Shown here: piece by piece, positions 3,814 to 40,429 of the stretch
How the letters are laid out: the number at the start of each line of letters is the position of its first letter
Numbering within the stretch: the first letter of the stretch is position 1
From: Halisarca cf. caerulea
Taxonomy: Eukaryota > Porifera > Demospongiae > Chondrillida > Halisarcidae
Direction of reading: 5' to 3'
Assembly (NCBI GenBank): GCA_963170055.1
Contig: CAUJGJ010000037.1
Span: forward strand, 1,051,601 to 1,115,600
Length of the DNA: 64,000 bases
Notes under the pieces: model-generated
The model's database searches: none
The model's input: only the letters and a program-made list of their open reading frames with translations
Told to the model about the DNA's origin: nothing
Program-made: the position numbers and the translations under genes

Positions 3814-4631
3814 CTACATGCAGACAGGATGGAGGGAAAGTATGCACATCCAAAGAACCAAACAACACACAAAATTTGTACATGCATATTGATGTGTATG
3901 TAGAAAACAATATCTGACAGTAATGCAGACAAAAACCCTTTAGAATTACAATTCGCATGATTCTTGTACAAGTATGTAAAAGTAAATATGTACTTTTGAA
4001 TGGCTAGCCATTACATAATGATGTTCCGAAGAATGATGAATTGTGTTAGATAAGAGCTTCAAAGCTATGACTTGTACTCCTTGCTAGCAAGGGTTGACAA
4101 AGTACATCTGACTGCTTTCCCCAGCTTCAGCTTGTACCAATGTACTGAGCCCTGGTCCCCATGAACATCCCAGTGGTAGTAGTAACAGCGGTGTCTTGTT
4201 GTTACGGATGCACAAGTACAGAGCAACATTGAAGTCACCTTTGCAGAGAGCAACATCATGTTCTGCTCTTACATGTGACGTAGCCAGATGGTACATGACC
4301 GTGCATAGGTAGACTACATAGATCCATGTTTTGAACAGGTGGCTTAAAGACTAATCACAATATACAGTGGATCAAGCCTGATAATACAAATCTTATATAA
4401 AAGACCCACATATAAACTTCGGTTACTAGGCTTCTTTTAGGTTACACAAGCCTATAGTTTGACAAGGAAAACCTACAACAAAGGCAACAAGGAAACAGGA
4501 TACATAAAGAGGCATGTAGACAGAGTAGAAAAGAGAATAAAGAATTTCACAAAGTTGATAGATTGTAGTTAAGTCAAAGTCATGCAGAAAAAAGAATTGA
4601 TCAATTGAAAAAAGAATATCTTAAATAAAAA

Positions 4632-14518: not shown

Positions 14519-17500
14519 ATGGCTATGGAAGGAGACGATGGCTTCGGTACTATGCAACCTCCTCTTACGGAATTTATCAAAAACTTACTACAGAGATACA
14601 CGGACGGTGGTCAGATTTTGAAGGTACGGAGATGCCAATAAAATTTTTGTGAGTTCAAATCAATCAATTTTTGCTGGCTTAGAGATTTTCTCAAACACAA
14701 CAGTAGCCATAGCTCTAACATCGACTTTTGCCTTAATTGAATATTATTGCTGAGTTTTTAGCCAGTGTCCTTATTAAAAGGAAGTTTTTTTATGAGGTGA
14801 ACACTAGACAGATAGCAATTATGATTTATACTGTATAATATTTTATTATTTGTTACTATATAGTTATTATACTTTATTTTTATTGTTGTTGCACATACAC
14901 ATACAAACCAAACCGTATAATGTGCACAGCAAAAAAATAATACAACGGTGACTGTGTCAATAGATAGATGGGTAGTTAGATAAATGAATAAATTTAATTT
15001 TTAATAGGAGAGCCCCATCAGCATAGCTGGTCTTCCTGGGGTCCTATGAACACAGAATATACATGCAGACATATGTATACAATGAAATCAGATGTAAAAA
15101 TTTAAATGATAAATAATTGAATTTACTGAAATAAGAATACATAGTTTACAGATATATACTTAGTTACTCTTTTAACATTATAAATCACGCAATCATTTAT
15201 TCATATTATATAAATCTGCTCCATGACATTACATCCAAATGGTAGAAGGATTTCCTTCCAAAATCAGAATTGATAGGATGAATATGGCGTTTATTACCAC
15301 CACAGGTACTCCTGCTTCCTGACACCTCCCTTTTGGTCAGGAAAAGATAGGCTAGGTCTGGTGGGGCTTGCTTATTGACACATCTCCAAACATATGCTAG
15401 ACATTGATGCTCTCGTCTAGCCTCAAGTGTCCTCCACTGCATGTAGAGTGGAACGTAGTCCATCACTCGGTGTTCGTGGAGGCTTTAAGAGGATTAGCCA
15501 CATTCCAAAGTTTTGTACAATCTCCAACATTGTTCTCAATTCCACTGAACACTCTTGCCATACCATGGAAGAATATTTGAGATGGGGTAGCACCAATATA
15601 ATATTTCTCTTTAATTTTAAACCAGTTGGCGATACGTTACAGAAATGTTTCAGCTTGCTCAATCCTCCATAAGCCTTCTTTCTCAAGGTGTGCACTTGAG
15701 CCTTCCAAGTCAGTTTGTCATCAAGAATTATTCCTAAACACTTCACTTCACTGGTTAGGAGGTTACCATCCAATTCAACCTTCACATCCACAACATCCTT
15801 GGCTCTTTCCTTCTGTGCAGTACTACAAACTGGGTTTTGCTAACACTTAGCTTTAGTCTGTTGCACTGCACCCACTTATTAACCAGTCAGATCCTCCATT
15901 AGGCAATCTTCTAGTTCCTGTTTGAGCCCCTTTACTACAGTTAATGAGGTATTGTCAGCCAACACCCTCAATTTGCTGTATTTCACCACAGCAGGTAGGC
16001 TATTGATATATAGAATAATTTAAAACAACAATGGACCAAGAATAGAACCTGAGGGTACCCACACCACAGCATACAGAAGTCCAACCAGACAAAAACTCAC
16101 CAATCTTTACACTCTACTGCCTGCCAAGAAGGTAAGGCCATTCAAGCTTTCCCTGGACACCATACTTCTCCAGCTTCTTTATTAACACACTGTCACAGAG
16201 TGGTTAACCATGTCAAAGGCTTTGCTGAAGCCCAACAGAACAGCCCTGCCAATCATTGCTGTCAAGAGCCTGTCTTCATTGCTCAACCAAACTAAGTAGG
16301 GCATCCTCCATATTGTATCCAGGACAAAATAACATTTCTAGAGCTACATAATATACTGTATGCCATAAGGGAAATGAGTGGTCATGATTTTGTGCTGTGA
16401 GATTCACATGTATCTCACTCATGACAAGTTTCAACTTGTTCAATGTAACTCCCCTGTTAAGACTTCTATGTGGAGACCTTCAATAGAAACAACTTTTAAA
16501 AAAGGCCTAAAGACTTGTAACATCGACATGCACTGATTTGTGTAACTTTTTACCACGTCTGTAGTATTTTTCTTTCTCATTGATAAAATATTAAACAGTA
16601 AAGACATTCATTCGATAAATACATATTGGAATTCCATTGAACTTTTGAATTATAAGAATTTCCACATAGTGTGGTGTATTACTATCAAAGTATCTGTACT
16701 GCATGTTTGGAGGCCTTACTATTTACTATCACATATGAGTGAATTGTGCATGACCTTACGTATACAGTGTACAAGTCAATTAGTGTGTGGCATCCTGTAA
16801 ACACTGCCTATACTATGACAATCTGCCAACTGAGGAGCACTATCCTAACAAATCTGAACATGTTTCACATGCGCAGAGAGAGCTACTGTCACAAGCTGTA
16901 TTGAAAGCTGTCTTTGCATGTAGTCTAAGACAGATTAATGCAGGGTAATGCCAGTACAAAATAGAACTAAATAAATGGTGCTACTTCTCCAGTTACTGAA
17001 GAGTGTGAAAAAAATAGTATATCCACATTTTTAACGTGTCCGGTAAATTAGAGTGTCCATAGGGCTTATATATGGTATCTTGATTGATTCTGTTAGGTTA
17101 TTTCTATATATAGTCTTGGTATTCAATGTAGGTAATGAAATGACCAAGGACCACTAGGTATGAAGGTGTATGTTTATAATAAATCCAAAAGACCAAACAA
17201 ATTATAACTATATACTTAACTTAAACTTGAATGTCATACAGTTATGAGTGGTCCTGCTGTGCGTGTTAAGTGTATATTTTTATTGTATATATCTATATCA
17301 ATAAATACTTCATCAACTACAGGAACTCCAACTACAGGAGCTACAATTATTACTGTATGCTACTGAATATACATTCATACTGTATCAATAAATGCTGTTC
17401 ACCAACTACAGGAACTCCTCCAGAATGCTGATGATGCTGGTGCACATACTGTGAGGTTCATCATTGACTCACGGCAGCATCCTAGGGATCCAGGAGGACT

Positions 17501-19408
17501 GTGGAAACCAAGTCTGGCTGTATTTCAGGGCCCAGCACTCCTTGCGTGGAACAACACAGTATTTTCTGATGCTGACTGGAGGAATATTGGCAAAATGCAC
17601 CAAAGTGTTAAGGAAGAAGACGTGTTGAAGGTGGGACGATTTGGTCTGGGCTTTCAATCAGTTCACCACCTCACAGGTTTGTCAATGTCATTATTACCGA
17701 GCTGTTTAGCGAGGTTAACTGTTTCCGTCGCCAATGGGAGTCCAATTGAGGTCGCCCACGCATTTCGTAGGGTAAAATTCCACCTTTTGGCCAAGAACTG
17801 ATATTTTCAACTCAAATTGCGGCTCCATTTCGACACTGATGAACACATCTATAACATACAGCTACTTGTATACGCGTGCACTATAAGATAAGTCTTCAGC
17901 CATTTCGATCAGAGTACGGACAGTTCAGTAAAGCGCCTAAGAATTTTCAAATTTAAGCTTACTTGGCAGTCTCATTGTTCTGTTTGGAGGTCAATGCATC
18001 ATCTTACAAGGCCTACAACATAAATATCTTGAAATTTTGTTAAGTGATTCTGAAAATTCAATAAAGAAGAGATAGGATTTCTGATTTTAGCGTTTGGGTC
18101 ACTAAAATTTAATACGTCTGCCATGATAGCAGCCATCTGCAATATGACGTAGCCTCGCTCATTGCGCATGCTCTATCACTCACGGCGACCAGACTTGATG
18201 ATTATTCTCTTCAGTGCACAGTCCCCGTTTGATATTTTCGTTCTTTTGGCAAAACTTCACTGTTTCATTGACATCTCGAGCAAACATGACCCTGAATGTG
18301 TTCTACACAGCCGAAATACACACCCCTGCAGTGTTCTCCCCAGAAATATTTTAAGGCATGTTGAAGTTCATGCCACTTTGAGTGTACATATTATCAGGGA
18401 TGGATGTAGGAAAGCTCAAGGAAAAAAGGTTTCCAAGTTGCTGTGGATGCTTGATGACCTTTGGGTTATGGCAATTAGCATTTATATATCTATTGTGGGT
18501 GAGCTAAGTCTTTCCTGTCCACCTAAATCGCTATACACTTCTTCTTCTTCCAGCACATTTACCAGTTGTGTTTCCTATTTTAATGCCTTCTTTTCTCTAA
18601 AAATGCAGTCAGCTTACCTTCCACTAAGCGCGGACAGTTTATCCTTGAAGATCGTACGCTTGCGACGCCAATCGAGCACGAAAACGCCTGCTGTCACACG
18701 AAGTACGTTTCATGACGTCATCACATTAAAATGGAGAATACTCGTGGAGGCTATTTTAGTTTAAGTTTGGGCGTTTGCATCATTTGTTCTCCTAAAAAAA
18801 TACTTTAAAGGCCCATAGATGTACACTTCTGCAAAAACTAGGAAGAAAAGAAGGCATGTCGGCCCGACATGCCTTAAGATACCTGGGGAGAACACTGCCC
18901 TGGTGTTGAAAGATTCCTTTTCCAAGCTACGTTCAAGTTCAGAGCGACAATATCTGATTATATCGCCGGTAAGCAATGTGTTCAGGAATCTTCAGTTACG
19001 TACAGAGATCTTTGCTGGATGGGTCTATAATGCCATGTCCGACTTGAGTATCTGTGGTCTGCCAAGTCATTTGTAAAAGATAGTGATTTCATTGCAATCA
19101 AACATATGAGGCGAAATCAAACTACATGTTAACCATTTGAGAACCTAAGTAACTGGCCAATTCACAGAATGAGTCAAATATTTGCTTGCAGTGACAGTGA
19201 GTCACTATCCTCCGGAAGCTCTTGCGGTGACACCTATAGTTACTGTAACAGTTTCTGCAACAGTACGTCATGATATACCACAATTGCTAACCAACAACTT
19301 GAACCAATTTCATGCACAGTAGCCTGTATCGCAATGGCAATCCAGCCACATGAATACCTCAATTCCTGGGACCACAAAGTAAATTTAAAAGGCATGCACT
19401 TTAAATTA

Positions 19409-19469
<61 letters not shown>

Positions 19470-22400
19470 TATATAGCAGATTGACTTCACGCACAGCATC
19501 AAGACAAATTTCATGGTCAAATGTAATAATAGTATGTCATAAAGTATGCATGGCCATCACATATATTCAAATGAGTGTTTACATTGCATTATATAGAGAC
19601 AAAACTGATCCAAAAACTTCTCATTCAATTTGTCAAAAGCAACAGTTACTGAACAATATGCATCCTGGACCAGTACCGCAATGCTTACAAACTTGTATAA
19701 TGACAATATTTATATGCATTATTTGACACTGTACAGAAAATTGGTGGTCAATGTGGTTATAGAGAACATGTCCTTAGTCTATCACAATACATGCATATAT
19801 TATACAATCACTTAATTCTTGTCAATGAATTGCCTCATGAATATTACTGCACTTAAAGCAGTGTTCATCCTAGCGTACTTTGCACCTGCATGTTCTTTAT
19901 TATGCTATTGTAAAATATGAATGGTTGCAAGGTCTAATTGAGCTCAAAGCTATTAATAAACGAAAGATGTCCCAACTTTCTTCTGTCGAACTGTACCAGC
20001 AGCTGATACATGTATTGGCCGGAATGCACATCAATCTATATAATTGTCATATGCTAACTCACAGATGACACATTCAATGCAAGTCAAAGCCACAATTGTA
20101 AATCACAAAACATAGTATACTGATTCAAAAATGGATACAGATCAAATGTCCATGCAACATTCGGTATACACTTTCAACTTAATTCCAATCTCAATCAAGG
20201 TAGTTTAGTACATGTTTAAGGCTGTACAAAACTAAACCTGATTTGTAGTTTATGCCAAACTATGAAGAGCTGTATGATGGTACTTGCAAGAGACAAATCA
20301 TCAAGTGAACTAAGCTATTATGCACAATCCGAACATATGCATGCAGCAGATTACTGCAGAAGGTATCACAGCTCTAATGACAATTATTGAATATGAGTTA
20401 ATTGGTTCACAGCCAGTCTCACATAGTCATGCAGACCCTTAACTTAAAATTGGCTTCAAATGTTGTTGCATACTTTTCCTTTCATATCGGATCAAAGGGG
20501 TCAACTTTATAGGTATGCATGAGCTATAGACTAGCTCACAATATGGATTAATGGATTACGTTTATACTGCTGTTATACAATCATTTCACCCACATTCCCA
20601 ATCCCAATTTCTATGTTAAGATTCCTTTTAGCGTAGTCTCGTTCCCAGGCTGCAGGAAGTACATGCATGGGTCTGGGAACAAGACTATTTTTGCTGCGAG
20701 GTTCTGAACTTTGTTCACAACTAGTAATAATAATTATGAAGTAAGATCTCAGTATACATTGTATATACAGTGTAAATGTACTTACTAAGTTGGCCAGAGT
20801 GGGTGAGTGTGAGGGAGTGAGTGTGAGTATGTCAAACGCCTTTTGATCTGTGAACTTGCTTGCATCATCCTGTGATTATGCAGTAACCTTAAAGTCTTCC
20901 TCAGTCTATATCTTCATGTATTGTTGCACTCGTAGTATCTGAAAGCATATTTGGTATAGCAACTAGCATGTTTGTATGGCAGAGATATAATCATGCAAAT
21001 TCAAGCATTTTTTGTGCTAAAATGACTGAAAATAGACGATTAAATTTCTTAATTCTTCATAGATCTTGACCAGAACACATTAATTCAATATAATAGGAGA
21101 AGCAATGCAAATGAACTTTGGATAAATTCAATCGGGAAATGCATGGCTCTTAATTGTCATCATAAACTAGATAGGATTATGATTGTGTGTGGGGGTGGGG
21201 AGGGGGTGGAGGGTGCAAGCCTGAGGTAGAGAAACATAATTTGACAAGCAGCCATTTGTGACGAAAACTGCATGTAAATTTTCATGATATATACTGTGTG
21301 TACCTAAATTAAACTTTTAGCACTTTTCTCTAATGGCTTCCATCCACCAACAGACTAAGTTTATATCAATAAAGGCTAAATGAAGGTAAGAATATGAGGG
21401 ATCTGTGAAAATAAATATATGAAAATTGTCGATCTGTGAAAGCTTCATCCTGTAAAAATTGAGCAGGTATGGTACTTTGGACACAGGCGAAAACTTCAAA
21501 AGGCACTGATACAATGCATGAAGGGCATGAAAATGTGCATGGCCCTGACAAGTGAGAAGCCATGCATGGTTAATGAAACCTAGTGTTAGCATTTCATGAT
21601 GATAATCAATGATGGTTGTGCACTGTGAGCTTTGGGTGGTTGTGTGCACAGATGTGGAGTGGAGATAGGAGGTGTTGCAGTTGATTCGGCCACTGGTGGA
21701 GTTTTGCATGATGCATGGGGCAGAGATTTGGAACAGGAATGCATGCATAGTGCAGAGATTTGGCATGGACTTATAATTAACCTTGGAACTGAGTGAATAT
21801 GTTCAGCTGCATGTGTGTTATATAGTGTGGCAGCCATTGGGTAATGAATGGTGTGTTTACAATTTTCTGGAACCTATATAATAGCACAACATTTAAAATT
21901 GAAATAATGTTTATAAATAATGGACGTCTTAATTGTTCATGCCTTTACTGTTTGCCTCATCAACAGCAGCCAAGAGTTAGTAGTCCATGCACTTTTGTAC
22001 GTGTTCTTGGTGGATGAACATGGTCTCACCTCCTACATGATCCTAAATTCCCAGGTAAAAGGAAGAATTAATGAGCAAACTCACTACAAACAGGGCTTGT
22101 TGCTTATGGTGCTACTATGCAGCTGAAAAATCATGTTCAACCTGTGAGAACTTGTCAACTGCATGAACAGAAACAATCCCGCCAGCCACAGACATGGCTA
22201 CTACACATTATATGTCCAGGCTCACCCTAATAATTTCTAAAGTACTATTAATCGCATGATTTTTAAGCAGTCTCTGATCACAGTGTTGTCAGAATAGTGG
22301 TATGTATAATACTGTATAGCAGGAAGTTTTCGTGCAGTAAAATTTCTGCTAAAGGCTCATTTCCCAAATTTTGTGGGTAATATTTTCGCAGATCCCTAAT

Positions 22401-25400
22401 ATTTAGGAGGCCATTTTTCTTAGATCGTGGTAGGAAAGTATAGCTTTTGAATGTATTGTGTGAACGAAATGGCGCAAGTTGGAGACGTTTATACCATTTG
22501 GACTTCAGTTGAAGATTTGAGGTTACTTTTGCTTTCTAATGGGATGTGAAACTATTAGGTGTGCATGTTTCGCCTGATCGTCTCTTTTAATAAAGAAGTA
22601 TAAAAGGTGATGTATAGCACGACCAGTTTTTAAAGAAACAGCCAACAAAATCTCAGTGCGAACTGCAATTAAATCCAGTTACAAACAACAAAGTCTGACT
22701 GCTGCTATAATGGTGTAGAAGCCTAGTGTGTACATACTACCTGAGCCAACGTAGCTTGGGATTTCTAGTGCTAAGATTTCGCAAATCAAAAGTCTTGCGA
22801 ATGCTGGGATATCCACTGCAAAAATTTCCCACTATGCGGTATGATGAAACTATAATAGGCTTTGAGCCCACACCACCTGGTCAAATACATAGTCTTTTTA
22901 CTGTTCACTGCACAGCTTATAGACTACACTGTCCAGAAATTTTAAACATTGACTAATATAAGAGCATTCACTTGATGGGCTCAGGAAGAAAATAAAATAT
23001 TATTACGTATCATAGTATTATTGAGTTAATAGTGTATATTACTGAAAGTCAGTTCTTGAAATGTAGTATCTGAATGACAATAGAAAGATACTGGTTAAAT
23101 CAGCTTTAAAACTATGGTACAAACCTGAAAGAAGGTAATGCATGATAAACAATAATACGATTCTGCAAAACAAGAATCATTTGTGACACTACTGCAAATA
23201 GAGAAACGCTAAATGTTAACAGCAAACGGTAAGAGCTAACCATGCCAAATGATGATCATAGCGAGATGAATGATTGCCAACATAAGTCACTCAACTCAAT
23301 CCATTTCCAAAATTGTCACAAATTAAATGAACAAGATCGAGGAGAAAGACAATAATATGCGTGCTAATTCATAAACCGAAAGCAACCAAGCGCTAGCTAA
23401 CCGAAAACTGTCATATTGTACATTGAATATGTACAAATACATGATGTTCTGTACATGCATGTTAATTGTGGCATTTGTGAACAGCATGGCTGTCACCATA
23501 TCTGTGCATGCATACTTACTACCTTGTTATCATGTTCACAGATCTACCAACCATAGTCAGTGGAAACAGTGTAGGGATTTTGGACCCCCATGAAAGTGTT
23601 ATTGACATGAACCCCAGAAAAACTGGAAAGAAATTTACAATGAATGAGTTTTGCTCTTATCAAGCACAAATGGAGCCCTTCAGAGGTATGGTTGGCTTCT
23701 CTCCTTATCAGTACTACAACGGTACACTGTTCAGGTTCCCTTTCAGAAATGGTAAGTTTCATTCGGCCATTTCTGACCGTGCCTATTCTCCCAAGGATGC
23801 TGAAGAAATATTATATGCATCATTAGCTGAAGAAGCTGAGCGTATTTTGCTGTTCCTGAACAATGTGACAACAGTTGAGCTATACCGTCTACCCAGTGGA
23901 AGCTATGAAAGTAACCGCCAGTTACTGCTGAAGATTTCAGCAACACCACAAGACGTGAAGAGTGCAAGGCAGTGGTGTCGCACCATGTGTGAGCAATATA
24001 GCAAAGAAGCTAACATTGGAGTTGACACTTATGTTAGCAGGTGTACTGTCACAGTAAGTGGTCCCCTTGCTAAACACCAGGGCACATATAGCTGGTTGAT
24101 GTGCAACACCATTGGTGGCAGGGATGCCACTATGAGAGAGCTAGCTACAAAGATCAAAGTAGTTCCTTGGATAGGTCTAGCTGCACCATTGCCGTCTGCA
24201 TGCAACTCTGGAAACCATTCTTTCAAAAGTCTGGTTACCCAGGATTGTAGGACGATTGAGCAGACTGTAAAGGGTAGCATGTCAAGAAATGCTCAATCTG
24301 TTAGCTGGAGAGATCCTCCTTCCACTCTGAGCAATGGAGGGTTTGCCTACTGTTTCCTTCCCATGTCAACTACATCAACGACAGGTCTACCTGTTCACGT
24401 CCATGGCTACTTCAGCCTCTCTGACAACAGGAGAAGAGTGCGTTGGCCTGATGCTGATGATCAGAGTGATGAAGCAAAGTGGAATCAGCATTTGATTGAG
24501 AAGCTCATTGCACCCTCTTATGCCATCCTTGTCATGGCCAGATGTAGCGTCACTGTGTACACTCATTGTGAGCTGTCAATGAGAAGCCTGAAGGAGAATG
24601 CTGATCCATATAATCTGCTTCCACTTTCTAGCACAACTAGTGAGTCATCATGGAAGCATCTTGTTCGATGTGTTCTCCCACTTTTAGCCCAGCTACCTGT
24701 ATTGTGGACTCCTGTCAATGGAGGGCAATGGGTGAAGAACAGTGAAGCTTACTTTGTTTCAGGTCAGTGCCCAGCAGGAGTGATTAACTTCCTGTTGCAA
24801 CTGCAGTGTCCCATTGTACACCTCCCAAGCCGTGTACAAGAGGACTGTAGTGCTATAGTGCCAGTACAGAGGATGCTGACACCACAAGTGGCCAGAAATT
24901 ACATTAGAGGAAGAGCTAATGTAGTGGCCAATATGTTAAAGCAGGACTTTGGGCTACTTTGTGATGTCTTGAGGTATGTCACATCAGACAATACCAGAGA
25001 CCTCCACGGTCTTCCTCTGATACCCATGAAGCAGGCAAATACTGTGGGTACATTCTCTTCTCACTATGGAGGAACTACTGTCTATGTGCAGCCACAAAAT
25101 GATCCTTTTGTCAACAGCGTTTTGTTTGGTTTGGAAGATATGCTTCTGTCAACAACCCTTCCTCATGATCTCACAGTTCTGTTTCAGAGAATAGCCTCCA
25201 GTGGTCAGTACAAGGTGCAGTCTGCCAATGCCAGTGTTGTTTGCTCTCAACTCCTTCGGCTATCTATGGAGAAATGGTGCTCACCCAATGCTAATCAAGT
25301 TCAGTGGAATATAGGACAGTATGGTCACCCACCTAGTGACTGGCTGTACATTGTTTGGCAGTATGTAGCTAGCCATGGCCAGGTAAACAATGTCACCGGT

Positions 25401-28400
25401 CTCCCCCTTGTTGCAGTACAGGGTCCAAATCACCTACCTACTCGTGGCAAGGTCACTTTACTTTCATTGACCAACAATGGTACCCTCTTACGGCAGAACA
25501 TGTATTGCCCCCAAGAAACCTGCAGTATAGCACAGGCACTAGGATGCACCATTGTAAATGATTCCCCTCTCTACGCATCTATTAGGGACCTCGAGAGACT
25601 ACTTCCCATCCTCACATCACAAACCCTGTTTACAGCAATGCAATCTCTGCATAATATTCAGGGAAGAGTCTCCAACCTCTCCACAGCTCAGAAGAGGAGT
25701 TTACGAAGGATACTAGTGGAAGCTGCACCCTCATTCACTTTGCAGCAAAGAAGTTCTCTGCAGTCCCTTCCTTTGTTTGAAATTGGTGTAGGCAATACTG
25801 CAGCTAAATTTTATGCAGCACGGAACCAAACTTTTGTATTTCCGAGTAGCACCATTGAATTCCCTCATACTCTACCTTTTCCATGGAACATTCTTAATGT
25901 GCACTCACAAGACGATGAGAGGTTCTACAACATCACACTGGGGAGGAATTCTCTTTCATTTGGTGAACTCGTGCGTAATTGCATCTTTCAACATGCTGTC
26001 TCCTGTAATGTTGGACAGAGAAATGGTATTATAGCATGGATAATACAAAACTCAAATCCACATGTTCATGGTAATCTTGAGGAATTTATTAGACAACAAA
26101 AATGCATTCCTAATTTCAAAAATGTTCTGTGCTGTGTTTCAGAGTTGTATGACCCGAATGATAGCAAACTAAAGGAATACTTTCACTCAAATGAGGCAGT
26201 ATTTCCATCAGCAGACTTGCATTCTGTGTTGTACAAACTACAGCAGTTTGGACTGAAGACTTGGAGCTCTGTCACAGCCAGCACATCATCCTTTACTTCA
26301 TTTCTAGTTAACAGAGCAAAGTCTGTATCTTTACTGAACCAGTGGGGACTGAAGCAAGATGCTGAGAAGCGTTCAAGACTAATTCTCCAGGAGGTGTCCA
26401 ACAGTCCTCACTGTTCTCAGTTGCTGAATTCTTTGAAAAATATCCCATTCCTTTACTGCCAGCCCTCTCCACCTCATGACTACATCAAAGGCTTTCATTG
26501 GGCCGGCGGTCAGTGCACAAATCTGTTTTCGATGCGGCAACTGCTTTTTGCCACAAGTATCTCGTACACTGCTAACTTGGTTGGCTCTACATGCCCAATT
26601 CCATCTGAGAGATATCTTGATAGCATTGTCAGAATGACAAGCACCAACATACCGTTTGCCTCCATCACTGATAATCACGTGTTAAAGCATTTCCAAAACA
26701 TTTCTCAGGTCACATCATCCAAATCAGTTCCGACCAAACAAGTAAGCTCCACCGTGGATTGCATATACAGCTGGCTACAGGGTAATTCCCCACAATGTTT
26801 CACATCAGTGAAGGGTCCTTTCATTTGGAATGGCAGTCGTTTTCTCAGCAGGAATCAAGTAGCCTTGAATCCACTAGCTGGCAAACACTCGCTGGCCCCA
26901 TACCGATACTCCTGCAAAGACTTACCCATGCTGGAGAAGTACAAATCCATGTGGGGGAGATGTGGAGTGAAGGAGTCATACACAGAAGAAGATGGTGTCA
27001 ACGTAGTGTCAGAAATCAGAGAGCAAGCACAAGGATATTTGGATGATAACAATTTAACCATGGTTGTTAATGTTGCCAAAGTTCTCTATGAACGTAATTG
27101 CAGTTATTTGGTGGACAAAATGTACTTGCCAAGCCATCGCAATACCTTGGAGAGTCCCTCACATTTGACGTATCATGACTACTATGTGGATCTCACAGGT
27201 AGTGAAGATGATGACTTCTTGTTTGTTCATCACAGCATAACGTCCAGTGTTGCTCAATTCTTCAATGTAATGTCTCTAAGCACTCGTGCTGCACCCTCTG
27301 AACCATTGGGAATTGAATATAAATGTACAGGTCCCTATGAGTCCATCACTCACAGGATCCACGAAGTAGTGGAGGAGTACGGTGATCAGATTGATGTGTT
27401 TAAGGAGCTCATACAAAATGCAGACGATGCTGGAGCTACAGTGGTTAAGTTTCTGATTGACTGGCGAGATTGGAGGAACTTCAAAGGCAGGAAGTTGCTG
27501 ACAAAGGAAATGAACACATGGCAGGGTCCAGCCCTCTATGCCTACAATGATAAGACTTTCTCCGATGATGACCTGAGAAATATTTGTAAAGTAGCCGGAC
27601 AGACAAAGAAACTAGATGTGAAGAAAATTGGTCGCTTTGGAATAGGTTTCTGTGCTACTTATCACCTCACCGATGTCCCAAGTTTTGTCACTAGGCGATA
27701 TTTGCAGGTTTTTGATCCTCACCTAAAATATCTTGGTGATCGAGTCAAACCTACTAAGCCGGGAATACAAATAGACTTTGTCAAGGAGAGAGAAGGTCTA
27801 CAGAAATACTTCTCAACTCAGGTAGAGCCCTATCAAGGGGTGTTTGGTTGTGACCTTTACAGCTCAGACCCAGAAGGATTTGATGGGACTCTGTTTCGCT
27901 TTCCCTTCCGCCAGCAAGGTGTGATTAGTGAAATATCCAGTGATGTGTTCTCTCAAGACTCAAAGGCTGTAAAGTCACTGAAACAGTCTCTTTTGGATAG
28001 TTCTAGAACATTACTGTTGTTCCTTCAAAATGTGAAGAGAGTAGAACTGTATGAATGTGATGGGAAATCTGGTACATCTGAAGCACTAAGAATGGTCAAG
28101 GCATTCTCCATTTCAAGAACCACTGCTGATCAGAAAGAATTCCGCAAGGAATTTATAATAACCAATAACTTTATCAGTGTAGATCCATGCTCACAAATTA
28201 TGAGGTTAGTATCAAAGAAGCCCTCTGATCAAACAGAAGTGAGTTTTTGTGTTGTGTCTTCAGCAATGGGCAAAAAGGACAGTCTTTCTTTTGCTTACGG
28301 ACAAGAGGGAAAATCCAAAGGACTAGTTCCTATGGCTGAGGTTGCTTTGGAAGTGGTGACTGAAGGTAGTGAGCTGCAGATCAAGAACACCAAAGGAGGG

Positions 28401-31400
28401 GTTTCGTGCTTCCTTCCATTACCCATAGCAACCAGTCTTGGCTTCCACATTAATGCATATTTTGATGTCTCCAAAGATCGTAAGCTGCTGAAAGGGGTTC
28501 AAGGATCAGAGGATGACAAGTGGAACGTGATGCTGATGAAAGATGCCTTATTACAAGCTGTCTTGACTTTGCTTGAATTTCTCACTGGAAAAGCTCCTGT
28601 GGGGAACAGGAAGAGGATGGAAGAGTTTCTGGACAAGTACTATTCCCTCTTCCCTGTTAGAAGAGGGAACACATCTGTAATTGCTGACAGTGTTCAGCCG
28701 TACCTCTCTGAGGCTTTTGGACGTGAATTTCCCAGTGTATCAAATCCAATAATCTGGTGTGAATCCAATGGTGGTTGCTGGAAGAAGCCCTGTGATGTAT
28801 TGGTTCTGAGTAATGAATACCCTTTAGTCGGTTCATTTTGGGATACTACTTTTAAGCTATTGGTAGAGCTTAAAGTTTGTGTTGCTAAAGTTCCCAAGTG
28901 TGTAGGAGACCACCTGAGGTTGATTTCTTTCCATGACTTTTGTACTAAATGTTTCTTTAAACAAATGAATGAATTGCCTCTTGACTTTGCAGACAAAATT
29001 CTGCTCCACCTGCTAAAGAATTATGATAACATTGTGATATATCATAACTGGATTGAAGAATTGATGAAAGACAGTCCTTGCATACCCAGCAAACCATATG
29101 GTGTACGCTGCAGACCATGTGATCTGGTGGATGCATCCAATGCAACATTGAAGGTGCTTTTTGATGAAGAAGAGGGACGTTTTCCAACTGATGCTTACTT
29201 GGAGCAACTGAGCAGTTTGAAACATCTTGGAATAGCACACAAACGTCTGAGAAATGATGACGTTATTGGCAGAGCCAAGACAGTGAGCACTCTCTGGAAC
29301 AGTCAAGAGTTTCGCAGAGCACTGGAAAGAAGCAAGAATGTTGTACACTATCTGGTAAAATATCATTATAACAGACGATTTGCAGCTGGAACTCAGGCTC
29401 AGCTTTTCCACAGCTATTGTTCTGAAGATGACAATGCACTCCTGTCAGAACTGTCTACAATTTCTTTCTTGTTGCCTTCAGAAAGACCAAAAGGCACTAC
29501 CTTACCATGGTTTGAAAAAACTACAGTGTTGTCTTCACAACATCTGTACCTCTGTGAGTATTTTAACCTTGTATTCACTCAATATGGCATTCTGAATCAG
29601 TGGATCTATGACTCTAATGTCAGTAACATTCTGAAGTTTCAACCACGTCCTGAAGTGGACATAGCCATCCAGCAACTAAAGAATCTCATTGAATGGTGGA
29701 ATGATGGAGGGAAAGAAATCAGGACAAGGGAAGATTGTAATGTTATTTCCAAGGCAACATTGTCTGTATACTCCAGTCTGCAGTCACATGTGCAAAGAAG
29801 AGTGTCTGCTATGTCCATGAGCCAGAAAGCAGATGATAATGAAATGGAGAAACGTCAAAAATTCATCCAAGAGCAACTTAAAGGGTTACCCTTCATATGG
29901 GAAGGGGACTGCTTCTATCACGCTGACCAGGTGTTCATTGAAGAGCTACACTACTGTCCTCCTTATATGGTGAAACTTACTCATCTTTCTAGTTTCTTCC
30001 ACATGATTGGTGTAGCTAAAAGGGCTACTAGTGATCAGTTGGTTTCCATACTTGGGAAGATGAAGGAGTGCAAGGGTAAACAACCTCTATCTGACGATGA
30101 AATTCTTTTCTGTGTGTCCCTTACTACTAGACTTTCAAATGATGAGGGTACATATGATGATCTCTGTCTCCCTGACAGTAGAGGCATAATGCGTCGCAAG
30201 TCAAAGCTTATGTACATGGATGATCGTGATTATTCATGGCTACTCAAGCATGATGCATTTGAGGACATTTCTGGTGATGTATCATATCTTCATGAAGACA
30301 TCTCATGGGCAATAGCTAAGAAACTTGGACTGCAGAATCCCGTGCAGACCCTGTTGGACAAATATATTGACAATGACTTCATTAAAGGCATTGACTATGG
30401 ACAAGAAGAAAGACTCTGTGACAGATTAAGTAACATCCTGCGAGGCTATCATGCTGATAGTTCTATATTTAAAGAGTTCATTCAGAATGCTGATGATGCC
30501 GGTGCCTCGGAGATTGTGTTTGTGTTGGATAAAAGGAAATTTCTTGATGAAAAGCTATTTTCCGAGCATGTTCCTTGGAAAAGGCTCCAGAAGATGCCAT
30601 CTCTGCTTGTGTTCAATGACAAGAAGTTCTCAGATGAAGACATTAGGAGTATCACAAGGCTTGGCAGAGGAGGAAAGCAGGATACACCAGAAACCATTGG
30701 AAGATTTGGTATTGGATTCAATGTAGCATATCACATCACAGACTGTCCAGTGTTTGTGTCACATGGCGAGGGGGGCACTCCCGAGCACTTCTGTGTGTTT
30801 GACCCCACTCTTCAGTATGCACCAGGTAGTACCACCAGTCATCCAGGAAGAAGGTGGGACCTTCGTAAGGGACAGGGTGACATTTCAACACTGCTTGTAG
30901 ACCAAATGGAACCATTTTCTCAGGAGACACTTGATTTGATATCCACTAAATACCCCCATGTTCTTGCCCAGCTAAATAGTAACCCTAAATGGAAGAATGG
31001 GTTTGTGATTTTTAGGCTACCCTTGACAAGGGAAGAAGAACAGTCATTGCCACATAGACATAAAATTAAAGGTTACCACATGACTCAAAGTTATCTTCGA
31101 CATCTTATGGATGAATTGGTTGATGAGATTAACCAAATGTTACTATTCTTAAATCATGTCAGACGTATTTCACTATTTGAGATATCAGGAGATGGTCGAT
31201 GTACTCTACTTGGCTCTGGTTGTGCTGACATATCACCACTGGATGAACAAAGGTGTGATGACTTTAGCAAAGACATGTCTGCATCAATAGATGCCTTAAC
31301 GGCAAAAGGAAGCAATGCTCCTTCAGTGAATACTATTTATAAAATTAGTGTGAGTGGTACAAAACTGAAGAAAGTCGTTGACAGGCCAAAAGTGACGTAT

Positions 31401-34400
31401 GCATATGTACCTAGTTCAGAAGGATGGGTTGTTAGTAAGAGATTTGGTGGACAGGATGTTGATGCAGATTTGCTAGCTACAGGATTCAAATGTAGCTTTC
31501 TACCACTTGGTGGTGTAGCTGCTAGACTACCATCAGGTAGAGCCCAATGGCAACATGGAGGGAGTATGTCTTTGTACTGTTATCTCCCTCTGCCTTTGGA
31601 GGTGACTTTACCAGTCCATGTCAATGGGCACTTCTGGTTGAATGACTCACGACGTAGCCTACAGCATAGTAAGGGGGACCATGAGCTGAAAGACTGGAAT
31701 GAAGCAATTAGCAAGGATGTTGTTGCTAAAGCCTATGTAGACTTGCTACTCTATTGCAGGGATGTAAAGGCTGGAGGGGATAATAAATTTGACCCCATTT
31801 GGTACTACAGGCTATTTCCACAAAGTAGCCAGACAGGACCTTTGGAAAGTTTCAATATTCCAAACAGAATGTACTCTCTGCTTTTAAGTCAAAATGCTCC
31901 AGTTCTCCTGGCAAAGAAAGAAAGGGAGGAAGAAGAGCGTGTGGATCCCAAGTGGCTGTTATTGAGTAACTCTGTTCATTGCCAACAGGGTTTATTCTAC
32001 AAGGAGAATTCTTCATTTCCATCATTGCTATCACGTACTGTGGTTTCAGGAGAGCGGGGAGTGAAGGACAAACTCAAAGTACTGCAAGGGAACACTTTAC
32101 TTAATTTGGGAATGAAATTAACCTCAGCTCCATTTGCAATTGCAAATTGTGTACAAGAAGCACTCTCCCAAGAAGTGACATTTACTGGTATTGTTACACC
32201 CATCATTGTGATGGACCATCTCAGATCCCTTGTACCTCAACTTGACAAGTATAAGGATGTGATCATTGGGGACATTACACTACTACTGACCTACTGTCTA
32301 TCAGATGTACCAAGTGAGCCAAAAGCTGTGCATTGGACAAGTGTTCTCAATGGAGTCCCGTTGATGCTCACTGAGGATGGAACTCTAAAGGAAATGTGTG
32401 AAGTATATGATGGACACTACACTAAGTTACTTCCCCATTGCTCTCAGCAGTTTGTCAGTCAAGTCATTTGGCACTGTACGAGCTTGGTGGGACAACTTGA
32501 GGCCCTGAAAGTGATCAAGCCTTTAGTTGACCACCCACAATATGTTTCTAAGCACATTAGACTCAGAAAGAATGTTGGAGTGGTATCCTTTAATCCTGGT
32601 TTGAAGGATCTTTTACGTTTGCTTTGGGAATACATTAGGAGTATTCCAGAAGAAGATGTTCACCATTTCAATGATTTCTCCATAATTCCAACAACTGATG
32701 ATAAGCTTTACCCTTTCTCACAAGTAAAAATGGTTTTATTTGAGCCCCCTACTAAGGCATTAATCACTCTTTTCGGCTTCCCTGTTGTTGACTTCAGCAA
32801 ATTATTTTCGACTTACCGAGAAAATGTTTTTTACAGAAATTTTGAATCTTACTTTGCTTGTGAAACAGTACCAGACATCCTAAGACTTTTAAAATGCTAT
32901 CAAAATGATATCATAAGAAGGAATATATCACCTGAAGAAGCTGATGTGGCAGATTTCATCCGCTTTTTGGAACAAAGTGAAGATTTCAAGCATATAGGAA
33001 ACTTGCAACACTTGAAGAATCTTCCTTTGTTTAAATTAGTTAGCGGAGAGTTGAGACCAATAAATGGCTATGATGTAGTGCATGGCATTCAGAACATACC
33101 TAAAGATGGCCTTGCAGAGTTGAGTGCTATTGTGAAACGTGTTGGGTTTGTTGTTGTTCCTCCCTTCTGTGACCAATTTATGAGGAATGTGGGAGTCAAC
33201 TTATGGCAAAACAATGAGCTGCAGTTTTACAGGCAACACCTAGTGCCACATTTTCATGTGTTGCCAGTTGAAAGCACTCCACAGTTGCTTGAAGCTCAAG
33301 TTGAGTATTTGTTCCAGCTATTCTGTATTCATGGATATTCCAAAAAAACACGAGGAGCATGGAATGTGATTTTCAATCACCTACAAGCAGTACCATTCAT
33401 TTCAAGTCCACAAGGTCCAACTTGTGTGAGTGACCTGCACGACCCTCAAGTAGAACTGTTTAAAGAATTCCTAAGCAGTGATAAATTTCCACCTGATCCT
33501 TGGACAGAAGATAAACACATGCGATTAGATTTCCTTCGACACATGGGCTTAGTCAGCAGTGTGTCAGACCAGCTGTGGATCCAATTTGCTAATCAGCTTT
33601 CGGAGGAAATTTCACAATCATGTGATGAGGGGAAATTAGAATTGAAGGCCTCAATGCTCCTGGAGGAACTATCACAAAAAATGCTGGATACTCCTTCCTC
33701 GGATTTCTGCCATCGTGCCTCTCAGATAGTCTTTGCTCCTTGTCAGCCTCAAAGCCAGATTGAGAGAATTGTGAGGACAATTTGTACTCCAGAGCAATTC
33801 CCACACCAAAGGTGGAGCAAACTATCTGGGTGTGTGGTTGCGGATAGTAGTGAAAATTGTGCATTGGCCTGCTTTGTGAAGCCTTGTTTAGTCATTGGTG
33901 AAAGTCTCAACAGTGGAACATCTCCAGAAGTTCTCTGTAAACTAGGCATTAGCAAACTTGATCCTGCAACTGTTGGACGGAATTTGATTTGCTTGTCAAG
34001 AAGCATCAAGAATTGTATGGAACTTCCAATGGAAGGAAGAGTGGCAATAGTCACTGCACTGGAGGATTTATTTAAAGATCACTACAAGTACCTTAATGAT
34101 AGTCGGGCTATCTCGTTGGATTTTCTTCATAAAGAAAATTGCATTTTTCTTGCCAAATCCTGTAAATTTTCTTTCCTCTTTTTATCACCTGAACAAGTCT
34201 GCCAATCATACTCTCCTGACATCTACGAACTGCGCCCTTATATTCAGCCTGTTCCATCTTACTTTTCTTCTTTTACTACCTTCCTTGATAGAGCTGGTGT
34301 TACCAAGGAACTCACCATTCCTCAATGTCTGCATGTTTTAAGAGAGTTGTACAAGCAACAGTCATTGGATCCTAATAACCGTAAATCAGCCTTGGTAGCC

Positions 34401-37400
34401 TACAGGCATCTTGTGATACTTTGCAGGGCAGCTGAGAAGGAGGACCAAGGAAGGGCCACTCACATTACAGTGGGAACAGGAGTAGTTCCTTTACCTTCTC
34501 TTGATAAAAGCAGGCTTCTTCCTTCAACTGATCTTGTATTAGACGATGCCTCTTGGATTGGTGATAGGCTGCCTGTAAGTACCTTCTCAGCTACACTTGT
34601 ATGCAAACCACCTGAAGATGAACACAGTTTTCACACTCTACCCAAATGCCTTGGAGTACGGCTTCTTAGTGACATCATCACAGAACACCCTCATGAGCAA
34701 ATGCTCCACCCAGCTAATGTATGCAATGCAGAGTGTGTGGCCAGAGCTGAAGGTGGAGAACAAGGATGCCCATTTGTCATTGCACTTACTACCATCCTGA
34801 CATCTCCAGAACTGTACCAAGGAGTGTTGAGGGTTGTCCGGTACGAGACTCACCAAGTACCTTCAGATGAAGTAGCTGGTATTGTAGCAACAAGTCTTCA
34901 GAGTTTCAATGTGAAGTGTGTTCAAATGATTAAGACTGTGCTTCATAATGAGCAAGGCCAATATATTCCTAATTCTGAAGCAGATGATAACACTTGTTTT
35001 GTAGCATCAGAAAATGGCAGTAATGATCAAACAGCCTATATTGCCCCCCATTCAGATTTTATCGATATCAATGAACTGCTGTACAAGTTTTCCAAAGGGC
35101 TAAACGTATTCATGGGGCAGATTGTCAAAGATACTGCACTTCTGATGCAAATGTTTCAATGTAGCCAACCTGAAGTGATCCCACTTGTCTTGGATAGATT
35201 GAACATACCAGCCTATGAGCACGGTATGGAAGCACGGCCGTCAGAGTCTGACATAGGTCAGCAGGTGCAACACACCAGTAGATTGGATCACATCATAGTG
35301 TGCACATTTGAAAATGGAGAAATAGTGAAATTCCATTCCAGCAGAGAATATATCAATGCTGAAATAAAGCAGATCCATAGTAATGTAGTTGCACAACTAA
35401 TGGCTTGTAGGCTGAAAGTGACAGACGATGATGGAGACGGGGAGGATGGACCTGTAGTTAACTTTGCCCCTCTCTTCATGTCAAAGTACTTGTCAGCTCC
35501 ACAGGCAGCATATGTGAAGAAATGCTGGAAGTTACCTGAAGATTCACAGGATGACAGTGATTCTGCTCCACACGAGCCCTTGTCATTCCTCCCACTTGAC
35601 ATTAGCAATGATCAGATACTTAGAGACCAGCTTGACAATGTTGTGCAATTGGTAAAAGATCACACCCAGCTGGAACTAGTTTGTATTCGATTAGCCCATC
35701 ATATAGAATTCCTTTGTGCTAAGGCTAATTGTCTTCAGAAATTTGAAGCAGTAGCTGAAGTATTTGTGATGCTCCTTCAATCACTGCATATTGACCCTCC
35801 TCTTATTGCAAGAGTAGAAGGGCTAATTCAAGAGCTGTTGTCTGCTCGAAGTGACCGAAGACCAGTATCTTTGGGAGGAAATGTGGGATTTGTTGGTAGT
35901 GGTGGCAATACGGGTGCTGGTGGTAGGAGAATAAGGCACAGAGGTGGTGGAGGTGGGGGAGGTGGGGGGGGAGGGGGAGGAGGCATAGGTGCACTACACA
36001 ATCCGGTGTGGAGACCAAGAGGTGCAAATCGGTACCAACACCCTGTGTGGCAACCAGCTGCAGTGGAAGTGGAACCCCCACCAGAGCCCAACTTGGTGGA
36101 AGCTGGAATGTGGCTCACTCAGTGTCTGAATGACTATGAAGCAGCTAAGTCACTGTTGGAAGCATCTATTAGATATCGCAGGAGCATCCAAGACCAAGAT
36201 ATCTCCATTATTCTCATATTTCCAGCACAAGTCTGTTTCCTTTGCCATGAAAGTGTGGAAAAATGTCTTAAAGCACTCTTCTTGGCCTTGTTTGGTATGA
36301 ACAGACAAATTTCAGGTCACACCAATGTGAAAGATTTGTGTGAAGAGCTACAGAGACATGCCCACTGGCCTAGTGATCCACCAGTGAACCTGATGCCTCA
36401 AGTGATTGAGGTGTCAAGTCACTACTTGCGTTGCAGGTATCCCGACTACAACTCTCCAATGATGGAGCCAGCTCGAGTGTATGCAGAGAGATTCCAGGAA
36501 GCAGAAGATGCAGTGACAGCTGTCAGGCGTATCCTAGAAACAATAGAGCAGATAGCGTCCATTGCAGATTTGATGAGACAAGTGCAGTACAATGTTCCTA
36601 TTCAAGCTGTTGCTCCTTTTGACCCCAATGGTGAGTCCTGCTATACCACTCTTTGTACATGTGCTACCTAATAAGCCACACTTAGACAGAGATGTGTACT
36701 CATTAATGTTGAATACATTCAATGTATGTGCACTTGTATTGGTGAATTGCATAGGGGCTGCATGCTCCTATATACAGAAAATATGAAAATTTACTTACAT
36801 GAGTACATATTATGCAAATCTAAGCACATGTACTTCATGTTTGAGGGTGACAGGTCTCGGACCAATCTTGCATCAAACGATGGCATGCATGTGCATTGAC
36901 ATGGCAAGTAGAAGGAAGGACCACCTGTAAGCTGCAACGGCTCTGTTTTCTGACCTCCATCAGCTGCTGTATAAATATGTAATGTGTGCTACCTTCATAT
37001 TCATGTTTGTATATACTTATATATGGTATGCATCCATATTCTCGAACAATCCAGTATATAGTTACAATTCATTCTGTTGCAAAGTGGAGGTCCTTGTGGG
37101 GTTAGAAATATGTGGACAGTGTGTACTGTAGATAAGTAGTGTGTATCCAAGTACAGTGGTACTCTGCTCACACAGTCACGTTGGTATATAGAGCTGCACT
37201 GAAGCATTCTTTGCTATATATCCACACAATTGAGTTGGGAGTGGATGCCCCAATACATGCTTCCTCCCTACTCCTACCTGGCCCTAAAAGCAAACTGCAT
37301 CCTCACACAATATGTTACTGTATTGTTGTACAAGACTTATCTGTATAGTTAGTGCTGTGTGTAGGGCACATACATGCATGTGCTTGTTTACTTAGTTACG

Positions 37401-38217
37401 ATGTACAGAAATGCAGTTTACTAGTGTATGAGTAGACACTGCGGCTGTGACCTTGTAGCTCAGAGTTCTACGTATCAGTATCAGTATTAATTATACTGTA
37501 GATTATTTGAATGGACCATGTACTATATATACAGTAATACAATATGCGCACTGTCACAATATTGCCTTAAATTGTTTATTCAATCAGTATTAATTTTACA
37601 GCGTAGCCATTTGTCTCTACCTTCCTCCAGCTCACCCTCAGGAATGGGCACCTCATGAAGAAGGAGTAAAGCTCAAGGAAATACCTCTACGAGAGGGTAG
37701 TCAGGAGTACAATGTAGTTGCTGATCTTTTCCACAGCAGCATGGGCACACATGTCAGGATCTACCAGATAGTCCGAATCCAGAATGTAGACCTATGGAGG
37801 GACTTCTCCCACCGTCGCCAGATGTTTGCAGAGCAGCAAAAACCAAGCCACGACAGACTGACATTCCATGGGACTAGGGCGAACAACCCAAGAGAGATCT
37901 ATGCTGGCCAACGTGGACTGGATATCATTAGAAGTGAACGTGGAGCTTATGGAAGAGGTATTTACCTGGCCAAAGATGCTTCTGTATCTCATGGTTACAA
38001 ACATACTGATCGTGGATTTAATCAGATGCTTGTGATAAGGAGTCTTCTTGGTCAAGTGAATATCAATGTCCGAGATGGCCCAGCACCTACCCAGCAAGTA
38101 CAGGGTGGAGTGGTTCAAGCCTACGATAGCATCCGAGGAGCTTTAGGAGGAAAGGATATATACATTGTTCACCGCAATGATCAGACATACCCAGCTTATC
38201 TCATAACTTACAAGTAA
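14519..38217 (+). CDS. Giant sacsin-like / HEPN / PARP fusion protein, copy 1
   Basis: Four coding exons by my model: 14519-14623, 17412-17676, 23542-36630, 37631-38217 (4681 residues, stop TAA). Borders are GT-AG and phases agree: exon 1 ends K35, exon 2 opens ELLQNADDAGA, exons 2/3 rebuild 'HHLTDLPTIVSG', and exons 3/4 rebuild 'FDPNAHPQEW'. Three sacsin repeat regions follow, each opening with a GHKL-ATPase N-box (catalytic Glu about residues 36, 1412 and 2435; ExxQNADDAGA) and a 'GRFGxGFxxxYHLT'-type box. A glycine-rich linker (about 4240-4275, with a long Gly run) precedes a HEPN domain like that of sacsin (about 4312-4470; 'CHESVEKCLKALF'). The last exon is a PARP catalytic domain (H4566, Y4598, I4663). 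Sacsin is a co-chaperone of the Hsp70 system. No J-domain HPD motif or N-terminal ubiquitin-like domain is seen here, and the PARP is an addition. Likely role (inferred): an ATP-regulated scaffold delivering ADP-ribosylation. Intron 2 is 5.9 kb and full of insertions. Confidence 0.9.
14965..16338 (-). mobile_element. 5'-truncated, decayed LINE in intron 1 of copy 1
   Basis: The minus strand carries reverse-transcriptase pieces in order but with stops and frameshifts: 'LGFSKAFDMVNH' near 16200-16240, a degenerate 'GVPxGSILGPLLF' near 16050, 'LADNTSL' (an altered FADD box) near 15955, 'LKLSVSKTQFV' near 15840, then 'CLGIILDDKLTWKAQV' (15791-15423) and 'RRxxxxxxYVWRCVNKQAPPDL' (15466-15206). The 3' end at low coordinates is a short A/T-rich 'atagatagatg' style tail. 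Copy 2 and the relic lack it. This explains most of the size difference of intron 1 (2788 against 1139 bp) and puts the insertion after the duplication. Ends are estimated by comparison with copy 2. Confidence 0.8.
19411..19475. repeat. (TA)n microsatellite
   Basis: About 27 TA units followed by 'aaatatatata', in intron 2 of copy 1. Tyr-Ile repeat frames across it are artefacts. Confidence 0.97.
20634..20687. repeat. Small hairpin 'tagtctcgttcccag'
   Basis: tagtctcgttcccag pairs with 'ctgggaacaagacta' around a short centre. The same 'agtctcgttccca' word recurs at about 43750, so it is a dispersed repeat. From 20766 to 22309 I otherwise see only intron sequence with weak similarity to intron 2 of copy 2. 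Confidence 0.6.
22310..22841. mobile_element. MITE-like element, intron 2 of copy 1
   Basis: Left terminus tactgtatagcaggaagttt and right terminus 'aatttcccactatgcggta' are inverted and resemble the ends of 40430-40630, with 'ttcgcaga'-type internal words. It is about 530 bp and non-coding. The boundary call rests on the termini alone. From 22842 to 23541 intron similarity to copy 2 resumes ('cacacctgg'-like words) with no gene. Confidence 0.5.
36099..36570 (+). other. HEPN domain of copy 1
   Basis: It encodes an all-helical segment: 'WLTQCLNDYEAAKSLL', then 'VCFLCHESVEKCLKALF', 'HTNVKDLCEEL', 'YLRCRYPDY' and a C-terminal helix 'FQEAEDAVTAVRRILETI'. This is the layout of the sacsin C-terminal HEPN domain, a dimerising, nucleotide-binding domain in human sacsin. 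The R-x4-6-H ribonuclease motif of HEPN RNases is not apparent, so RNase activity is not supported. It is nearly identical in copy 2. Confidence 0.8.
37631..38217 (+). other. PARP catalytic exon of copy 1
   Basis: The exon follows the acceptor 'taccttcctccag' and is phase-matched to the donor at 36631 (intron of 1000 bp). It reads 'IPLREGSQEYNVVADLF', 'IYQIVRIQNVDLWRDF', 'LTFHGTRANNPREIY', 'GAYGRGIYLAKDASVS' and 'YIVHRNDQTYPAYLITYK', the order and spacing of the PARP ADP-ribosyltransferase fold. The His of HGT and Tyr of GIYLA bind NAD. The third triad position is Ile, not Glu, which in known PARPs goes with mono-ADP-ribosylation. No PARP regulatory helical domain or WWE domain precedes it. 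Confidence 0.9.
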
Positions 38218-39225: not shown

Positions 39226-40030
39226 GGGCAAATGCATAAATAAATAATAGATAAATGCCGCATCTGTACTGTATGATCTTTAACTATGCAAGTGATATAC
39301 TGTATATATAGCTGTTATATTTCATGTAGATCATCCCTTAGCTTGTCCATCACCAATAATTGGCAGTTGTTCTCCTTTGCGTGACTATATAGAACCCTGA
39401 ATACAGCTACAGTATGTGCAAATTTGAAAAACAATGCCATACAAATATACTGTAGAACAAATTTCTGAATGTGATTTGCTAAATCTAAAATGTATACGTA
39501 TACTGCAGCTGTATGCAGATGAAATTGAACCTTCTTTCGTTTACTTTTTAATATACAAATGCAATGCTTATTCTAGACTTCCATGCACTGGAGTCATGCC
39601 CGAGATCATTGTATACTCATTGTACATGTGAATTGTACTTCATATATCCCACCATGCAATCTTGCCCTTCATGAGGGATCTTATATGTACATATTATACC
39701 ATCTGCATGTGACTATATCATACATGCAGTGTAACTGCATACACAGCTGAAATATGTTTTGCAGGAGCTGTGAACAGAGGTGAACAGAGCATGCATGATG
39801 AAAACCTCTGATGTTTGATCGCACATACTTGTAACTATGAAATGTACCCAAAAGTAAGTTTTTATGCCAATGCTTTGGCATGCGTATGCCATTTTATGAT
39901 GCAATTATGTGTACTGTACCATGTATGGTGGAATATCTGAATAATATGATCATAAAGAGCATGAAGACAAATATATGTCAATAACTTAAGATGTATTACA
40001 GCATTTTTGGACATTGTGGTGTATAAGTTA

Positions 40031-40237
40031 GTAAAATGCTTTCTGAATCTGTACAGATAAAGCACGTCAATCTTTTACATCAAAATTCTTCAATATACAA
40101 CGTTTCGCCACTTGGGCTTCTTCAGGTACCTACCTACCTACCTGAAGAAGCCCAAGCGGGAGAAACGTTGCATATTGAAGAATTTTGATGTAAAAGATTG
40201 ACGTGCTTTATCTGTCCAGATTGAGAAAGAATTTTAC
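40031..40237. mobile_element. Near-perfect 207-bp palindromic MITE
   Basis: Starting gtaaaatgctttctgaatct and ending 'agattgagaaagaattttac', the two arms are inverted along their whole length ('cttgggcttcttcaggta' against 'cctgaagaagcccaag'). They meet at a (cctac)-type centre near 40134. It is a full hairpin with few mismatches, hence probably young. Confidence 0.85.
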
Positions 40238-40429
40238 AAACTTAAGCGTCCAGCATGTCGGATAATTATTTCTACAATTGTGGTGTATCTTTTTCATAGA
40301 CTTATATTCCGCCCAGTTTGGAGCATGATTTATCAGAGGTTCAACTGTATTATTCAATCCCCTTATATGGCTGCATAAGGTGAACATGTGGTGAGCATGT
40401 GGTGAGTGGCCAGCATACGTGTCAGTGAA

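Follow-up and report, generated by a model that had tools for sequence, protein, structure and literature searches.

Tandem sponge genes predicted to join sacsin-type repeats and a HEPN domain to a C-terminal PARP catalytic domain

Results

We analysed a 64,000-nucleotide stretch of the 194 Mb genome assembly of the sponge Halisarca cf. caerulea (GCA_963170055.1, contig CAUJGJ010000037.1, here C37:1051601-1115600; 'the window'), which contains two tandem copies of a sacsin-like gene, both on the + strand. Each copy is likely to be one gene, whose spliced messenger RNA would encode a giant sacsin-like protein without a J domain, composed of three GHKL-type repeats, a HEPN domain and a C-terminal PARP mono-ADP-ribosyltransferase domain, and acting by the mechanism proposed below. 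Positions are those of the window, on the + strand, unless stated otherwise.

The window holds two pairs of stop-to-stop open reading frames (ORFs), 23481-36671 (4396 amino acids, aa) with 37594-38217 (207 aa), and 48199-61461 (4420 aa) with 62374-62997 (207 aa). In exon models built from conservation between the copies and from splice signals, four exons join in a single frame with one terminal stop, giving 4681 aa for copy 1 and 4683 aa for copy 2. Exon 1 of copy 1 (14519-14623) supplies the start codon and the lead-in to the first sacsin repeat (MAMEGDDGFGTMQPPLTEFIKNLLQRYTDGGQILK), and has counterparts in copy 2 (44236-44340) and in a third copy described below. Exon 2 (17412-17676; 45480-45744 in copy 2) encodes the N-terminal ATPase part of repeat 1 (ELLQNADDAG ... 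GRFGLGF). The giant, 13.1-kb exon 3 of copy 1 (23542-36630) carries the remainder of repeat 1, repeats 2 and 3, a Gly-rich linker and HEPN, and its counterpart in copy 2 (48326-61420) likewise carries sacsin repeats and HEPN. Exon 4 (37631-38217 and 62411-62997) encodes the PARP catalytic domain. Repeat 1 is thus reassembled over exons 1-3, with junctions ILK-ELLQNADDAG and HHLT-DLPTIVSG.

Pfam finds three SACS stretches in each giant ORF (E values 4e-160 and 8e-160), HEPN in both (8e-11 and 5e-11) and PARP in both small ORFs (1e-18 and 5e-17). Each copy has three sacsin repeats (PF25794) with NADDA and GRFGxGF motifs; in copy 1 the second and third SACS domains lie at 27339-28079 (C37:1078939-1079679) and 30408-31187 (C37:1082008-1082787). 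HEPN (PF05168) occupies 36228-36551 in copy 1 (residues 4250-4357 of P0001) and 61018-61341 in copy 2 (residues 4274-4381 of P0003). The predicted protein passes from a short leader (about 15 residues) straight into repeat 1, with no N-terminal ubiquitin-like domain, though a further 5' exon is possible. HEPN and PARP are separated by a GT-AG intron of about 1 kb (36631-37630 in copy 1), and both intron boundaries are in phase 1, giving FDPN-A-HPQEW across the junction. The initial annotation, made from the sequence, had proposed a 13.1-kb exon with three sacsin repeat starts and a HEPN, which Pfam and the ORFs bear out. Its junctions, 36630/37631 and 61420/62411, are exact in the joined models, where the intron is in phase with the PARP exon and the frame is single; the next copy does repeat the arrangement, with exon 4 at 587 nucleotides in both; and Pfam returns SACS, HEPN and PARP across the predicted exons.

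The predicted junction is already joined in a public sequence. A search with eight PARP exons (candidates of 0.55-1.75 times the query length) gave 854 matches, and among the best 120, which were listed, only one, P0073, also contains HEPN. This JGI protein of 320 aa, encoded on a 1557-bp contig and with 10 member sequences, carries both PF05168 and PF00644, starting within HEPN and extending to the end of PARP, and its junction sequence is FDPNAHPQEW, as predicted for the window genes. It aligns without gaps over all 320 residues, at 94.7, 94.4 and 92.2% identity to C37 copies 1, 2 and 3, and, since it differs from them by 17-25 residues, derives from another copy, strain or species. The absence of the intron suggests that P0073 is a complementary DNA (cDNA). 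Together with the single frame of the models, P0073 upholds the proposal that sacsin-type HEPN is joined in frame to PARP. Searching genome contigs with P0073 produced 13 pattern matches and no relative.

The arrangement recurs across the genome. Sacsin-domain searches gave 35 matches (counts may be lower bounds), all within seven genes: three on C37, three on C79 and one on C286. The third C37 copy lies just outside the window (giant ORF 1133468-1146859, PARP ORF 1148005-1148646; C37 coordinates). In all seven genes a PARP ORF follows the giant ORF on the same strand, at a distance of 0.4-1.7 kb; by a rough estimate, the chance of a same-strand PARP match within 2 kb downstream of a given gene is about 1.4e-4, with 27 PARP matches in the genome in all, PARP14-like genes elsewhere included. 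Pfam recognizes HEPN in 7/7 and PARP in 8/8 segments. The nearest PARP exon has, in every gene, a phase-1 acceptor directly 5' of a conserved xPxxW motif, and a phase-1 donor is available after HEPN (GTGAG or GTAAG in six genes, GTACAT in C79a). As each tail offers several GT candidates, the acceptor is the more telling side. The genes fall into four diverged groups (C37, C79a, C79b and C286), with 21-33% identity between groups in HEPN; being paralogues, they do not represent seven independent events.

In two sister genes (C79:958112-980074 and 1002228-1029143) the giant ORF, of 7320 and 8971 aa respectively, is a single exon with at least five sacsin repeats, and PARP exons again follow; the 8971-aa ORF includes 1667 unread residues (a run of N). 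In C79b2 a second PARP ORF lies about 7 kb behind.

We compared the three C37 copies in windows of 200 codons. The ratio of nonsynonymous to synonymous divergence (dN/dS) was below 1 in every window where it was defined (dS was undefined in one window between copies 2 and 3), the highest value being 0.84, in a PARP window; by this codon comparison, the copies are under purifying selection. Copy 2 carries a divergent cassette in and after repeat 3 (55803-58904), which, against 31034-34120 of copy 1, is partly alignable DNA of 71-72% identity, versus 93% in the flanks. Across this region (windows 2601-3800, about 1100-1200 codons) dS between copies 1 and 2 is 0.5-3.2, versus 0.05-0.32 in the flanks. 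Copies 1 and 3 agree throughout it (dS 0.11-0.34), which makes copy 2 the probable recombinant; it probably received a divergent repeat-3 cassette through recombination.

The PARP exon matches PARP15 in sequence (E 7.5e-18), as well as PARP12 and PARP14, and more weakly ZC3HAV1 (PARP13; E 1.4e-9). A structure model of P0073 matched PARP15 at E 2e-14, with a template modelling (TM) score of 0.80 by target length; its predicted local distance difference test (pLDDT) score was at least 87 in 16 of 19 ten-residue blocks of the PARP part and low in the truncated HEPN part. Of the catalytic triad (H 37867-37869, Y 37963-37965 and I 38158-38160 in copy 1), H92 and Y124 are present in 8/8 exons, and position 189 is I in six and V in two. 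An H-Y-Phi triad marks a mono-ADP-ribosyltransferase, not a polymerase. With I or V rather than E at the third position polymer formation is not expected, and by this rule the window PARP is best read as a mono-ADP-ribosyltransferase.

HEPN nucleases carry an Rx4-6H motif where helix 3 ends. At this site the C37 copies have RCRYPD (Rx4D), R..PD is found in the C79b copies and in C286, and C79a has no R; a histidine three residues ahead of the C37 motif is invariant in 7/7 genes. Published work is cited here from excerpts. Several HEPN-T members have D in place of H and may rely on a different H, and sacsin HEPN may be an RNase or a non-catalytic binder, depending on lineage (PMC3710099); human sacsin HEPN binds nucleotides (PMC4569058).

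The J domain, judged by its motif because precomputed Pfam lists show none in annotated sacsins either, appears to be lacking, as had been suggested: a motif search found no HPDK in 7/7 giant exons, and no HPD in those of the two window genes. Among 66 giant-exon relatives from other assemblies, HPDK lies 129-243 residues from the C-terminus in eight, fish and acorn worm sacsins included; in four more, HPDK or HPDR lies far from that end, and the remaining 54 have none. Named relatives P0053, P0058 and P0063 are also without HPDK near the C-terminus, so that its absence is not unique to the window genes. The initial annotation had placed PARP in the position of the J domain. We dropped this idea of positional replacement, because the canonical HPDK precedes HEPN (as in the eight relatives) and PARP follows it. 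These genes either lost J or never had it, and acquired PARP on the opposite side of HEPN. Two relatives, P0033 (7401 aa) and P0049 (6386 aa), keep HPDK about 240 residues before the C-terminus, and their contig sizes are not shared with the listed PARP matches (120 of 854).

Most of the 66 relatives are unnamed proteins encoded on long genomic contigs; Dysidea avara sacsin-like P0053 is the only one named as a sponge protein. Contig sizes were given for 63 rows and amount to 51 distinct sizes, 12 of which recur among the 113 distinct sizes of the PARP matches (best 120 of 854); an equal size is a fingerprint of the same contig only, not of adjacency. We built one tree from the final 1500 aa of the giant exon and another from the PARP exon, covering 11 contig pairs (all of the 12 except P0008); a contig with several giant ORFs or PARPs was represented by a single one of each. 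Both trees recover a C37-type clade that includes P0005, P0007 and P0021 at 100/100, and in both P0035 pairs with P0046 and P0043 with P0050. With two PARP14-like genes as the sole outgroup, the trees cannot test whether the fusion arose once. A search of viral contigs with query A1 gave 41 pattern matches and no relative. The initial annotation had suggested looking in other genomes for proteins with sacsin repeats, HEPN and PARP; P0073 provides the HEPN-PARP part, and a full-length protein with all three was not found among the 66 relatives or among 184 giant candidates.

Elsewhere in the window, two minus-strand ORFs of at least 200 aa (3347-4003 and 10598-11335) have no Pfam match, and inverted repeats of about 150-220 bases with 86-97% identity (40024-40244, 8121-8269/8436-8584 and 12474-12632/12838-12990) are possibly small transposable elements.

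Discussion

Several of our observations weigh against a single joined gene. PARP is absent from all 66 giant-exon relatives, 50 of which have HEPN, and no giant protein (about 2700-8600 aa) holding this PARP was found among 184 candidates at E 0.001. The first of these negatives is to be expected if most of the relatives are, as we think, single-exon ORF predictions ending at the intron, and is still a negative. The shared contigs P0005 and P0026 are not independent, because their genes are identical or nearly so to those of this genome, and the two trees agree only in part, the C79-like rows not being congruent and the order within the C37 clade differing. P0073 may possibly be a retrocopy or an intron-less relative. 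The C79a donor is weak, and each tail offers several GT candidates. The HEPN structure model matched no solved structure at E 0.001 or better: the best match had E 0.05, the solved human sacsin HEPN (3o10) E 0.07, and about 10 of the top 20 rows were HEPN proteins, counting YutE, which is named as one in PMC3710099.

The first two negatives would suit a pair of separate genes that tandem duplication has kept side by side, namely a sacsin gene that lacks PARP and terminates within the intron, followed by an independent small PARP gene, and the giant ORF does have its own stop (TAA, 36669-36671). However, the ORF of P0073 runs from HEPN to PARP over the exact junction, the PARP exon opens at a phase-1 acceptor and lacks a 5' start codon, and order, strand and phase are kept in the seven genes found, over deep divergence, which makes separate genes highly improbable. 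An optional PARP exon, with intron retention or early polyadenylation yielding a PARP-less scaffold and splicing regulating PARP, would be allowed by the arrangement, since read-through of the donor gives a short tail with a stop within 41 nucleotides in copies 1 and 2. These tails resemble one another in the three C37 copies but differ from one diverged group to the next, and we consider two such isoforms unlikely. It is slightly less likely still that PARP has little or no catalytic activity and serves to bind NAD+ or ADP-ribose or to dimerize, for which PARP13-like proteins would be the comparison. Position 3 of the triad is indeed I/V and not E, and PARP13 is among the solved relatives, if a weaker one; yet H and Y are invariant in 8/8 exons, and the closest solved relatives, PARP15, PARP12 and PARP14, are active mono-ADP-ribosyltransferases.

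For the single joined protein, which we prefer, we propose that the sacsin repeats would bind a client, or a ligand that is foreign or misfolded, and switch conformation with ATP; HEPN would pair two chains or sense nucleotides; PARP would thereby be activated, and would give a stress or antiviral signal by mono-ADP-ribosylating the client or proteins close to it. A role in stress or antiviral defence is probable, our leaning towards the latter coming from literature on relatives (PMC7064767, PMC3710099). The stress or innate-defence sensor put forward in the initial annotation is likewise an inference. A function in proteostasis, that is, tagging of chaperone clients, rather than in immunity is the alternative that we take most seriously, though we do not favour it. 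Sacsin repeats contribute to chaperone-like activity (PMC3629688), and none of our results indicates a microbial ligand. On the other side, the giant exons have no J-domain motif for recruiting Hsp70, a swapped repeat cassette among tandem copies is more suggestive of diversity in recognition, and an oyster antiviral gene list includes sacsin (PMC7064767).

The function of sacsin is called elusive or not clear (PMC4569058, PMC9437860), and there is no settled view of the molecular output of its ATPase repeats and HEPN. A natural sacsin that carries a catalytic effector would offer ADP-ribosylation as a readout, with which the ligand and the ATP gating of the repeats could be assayed. The window genes would also link, in one polypeptide of an early-branching animal, sacsin and PARP, both of which are discussed in antiviral responses in the excerpts consulted. 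More speculatively, and on balance doubtfully, they may belong to an ancient, expanded family of J-less sacsins, with ATP-gated sensor repeats, exchangeable recognition cassettes and a built-in PARP effector. If so, a single giant protein would both detect its target and ADP-ribosylate it, and would represent a class of innate-immune receptor not yet described.

Canonical sacsin has its J domain (HPDK) before HEPN, and vertebrates add an N-terminal ubiquitin-like domain (PMC3710099), whereas the window genes begin at repeat 1, have no HPD in their giant exons and place PARP after HEPN. Sacsin repeats are likewise reused in an immune-type context in sacsin-Death proteins, fusions described in a sponge (Amphimedon; PMC3710099) and represented here by P0053, in which Pfam finds Death and SACS and no HEPN or PARP. 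These have an N-terminal Death adaptor, in contrast to the C-terminal PARP effector of the window genes.

PARP14, PARP15 and PARP12 are the best matches of the catalytic exon in sequence and fold, and the partners of their catalytic domain are macro, WWE or zinc-finger modules rather than sacsin repeats and HEPN. PARP14-like genes (macro domains judged by eye) share the genome with the window genes; in three of them, L006 and L007 on C25, which are nearly identical, and L004 on C150, PARP ends a long single exon, with open frames of 1067, 1102 and 938 aa.

The literature covered (titles and abstract openings, mostly outside subscription journals and excluding supplements) describes no architecture of sacsin, HEPN and PARP, which agrees with the novelty proposed in the initial annotation and is not proof of absence. 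A partial likeness is found in cnidarian TRADD-N proteins, which also have HEPN and PARP in one immune-type polypeptide (PMC8195603); the excerpt mentions sacsin fusions separately and does not state the three-part combination. In those proteins, unlike in the window genes, HEPN is N-terminal and accompanied by TRADD-N and Macro. Against these known systems, sacsin repeats with HEPN and a C-terminal PARP look to be a new combination.

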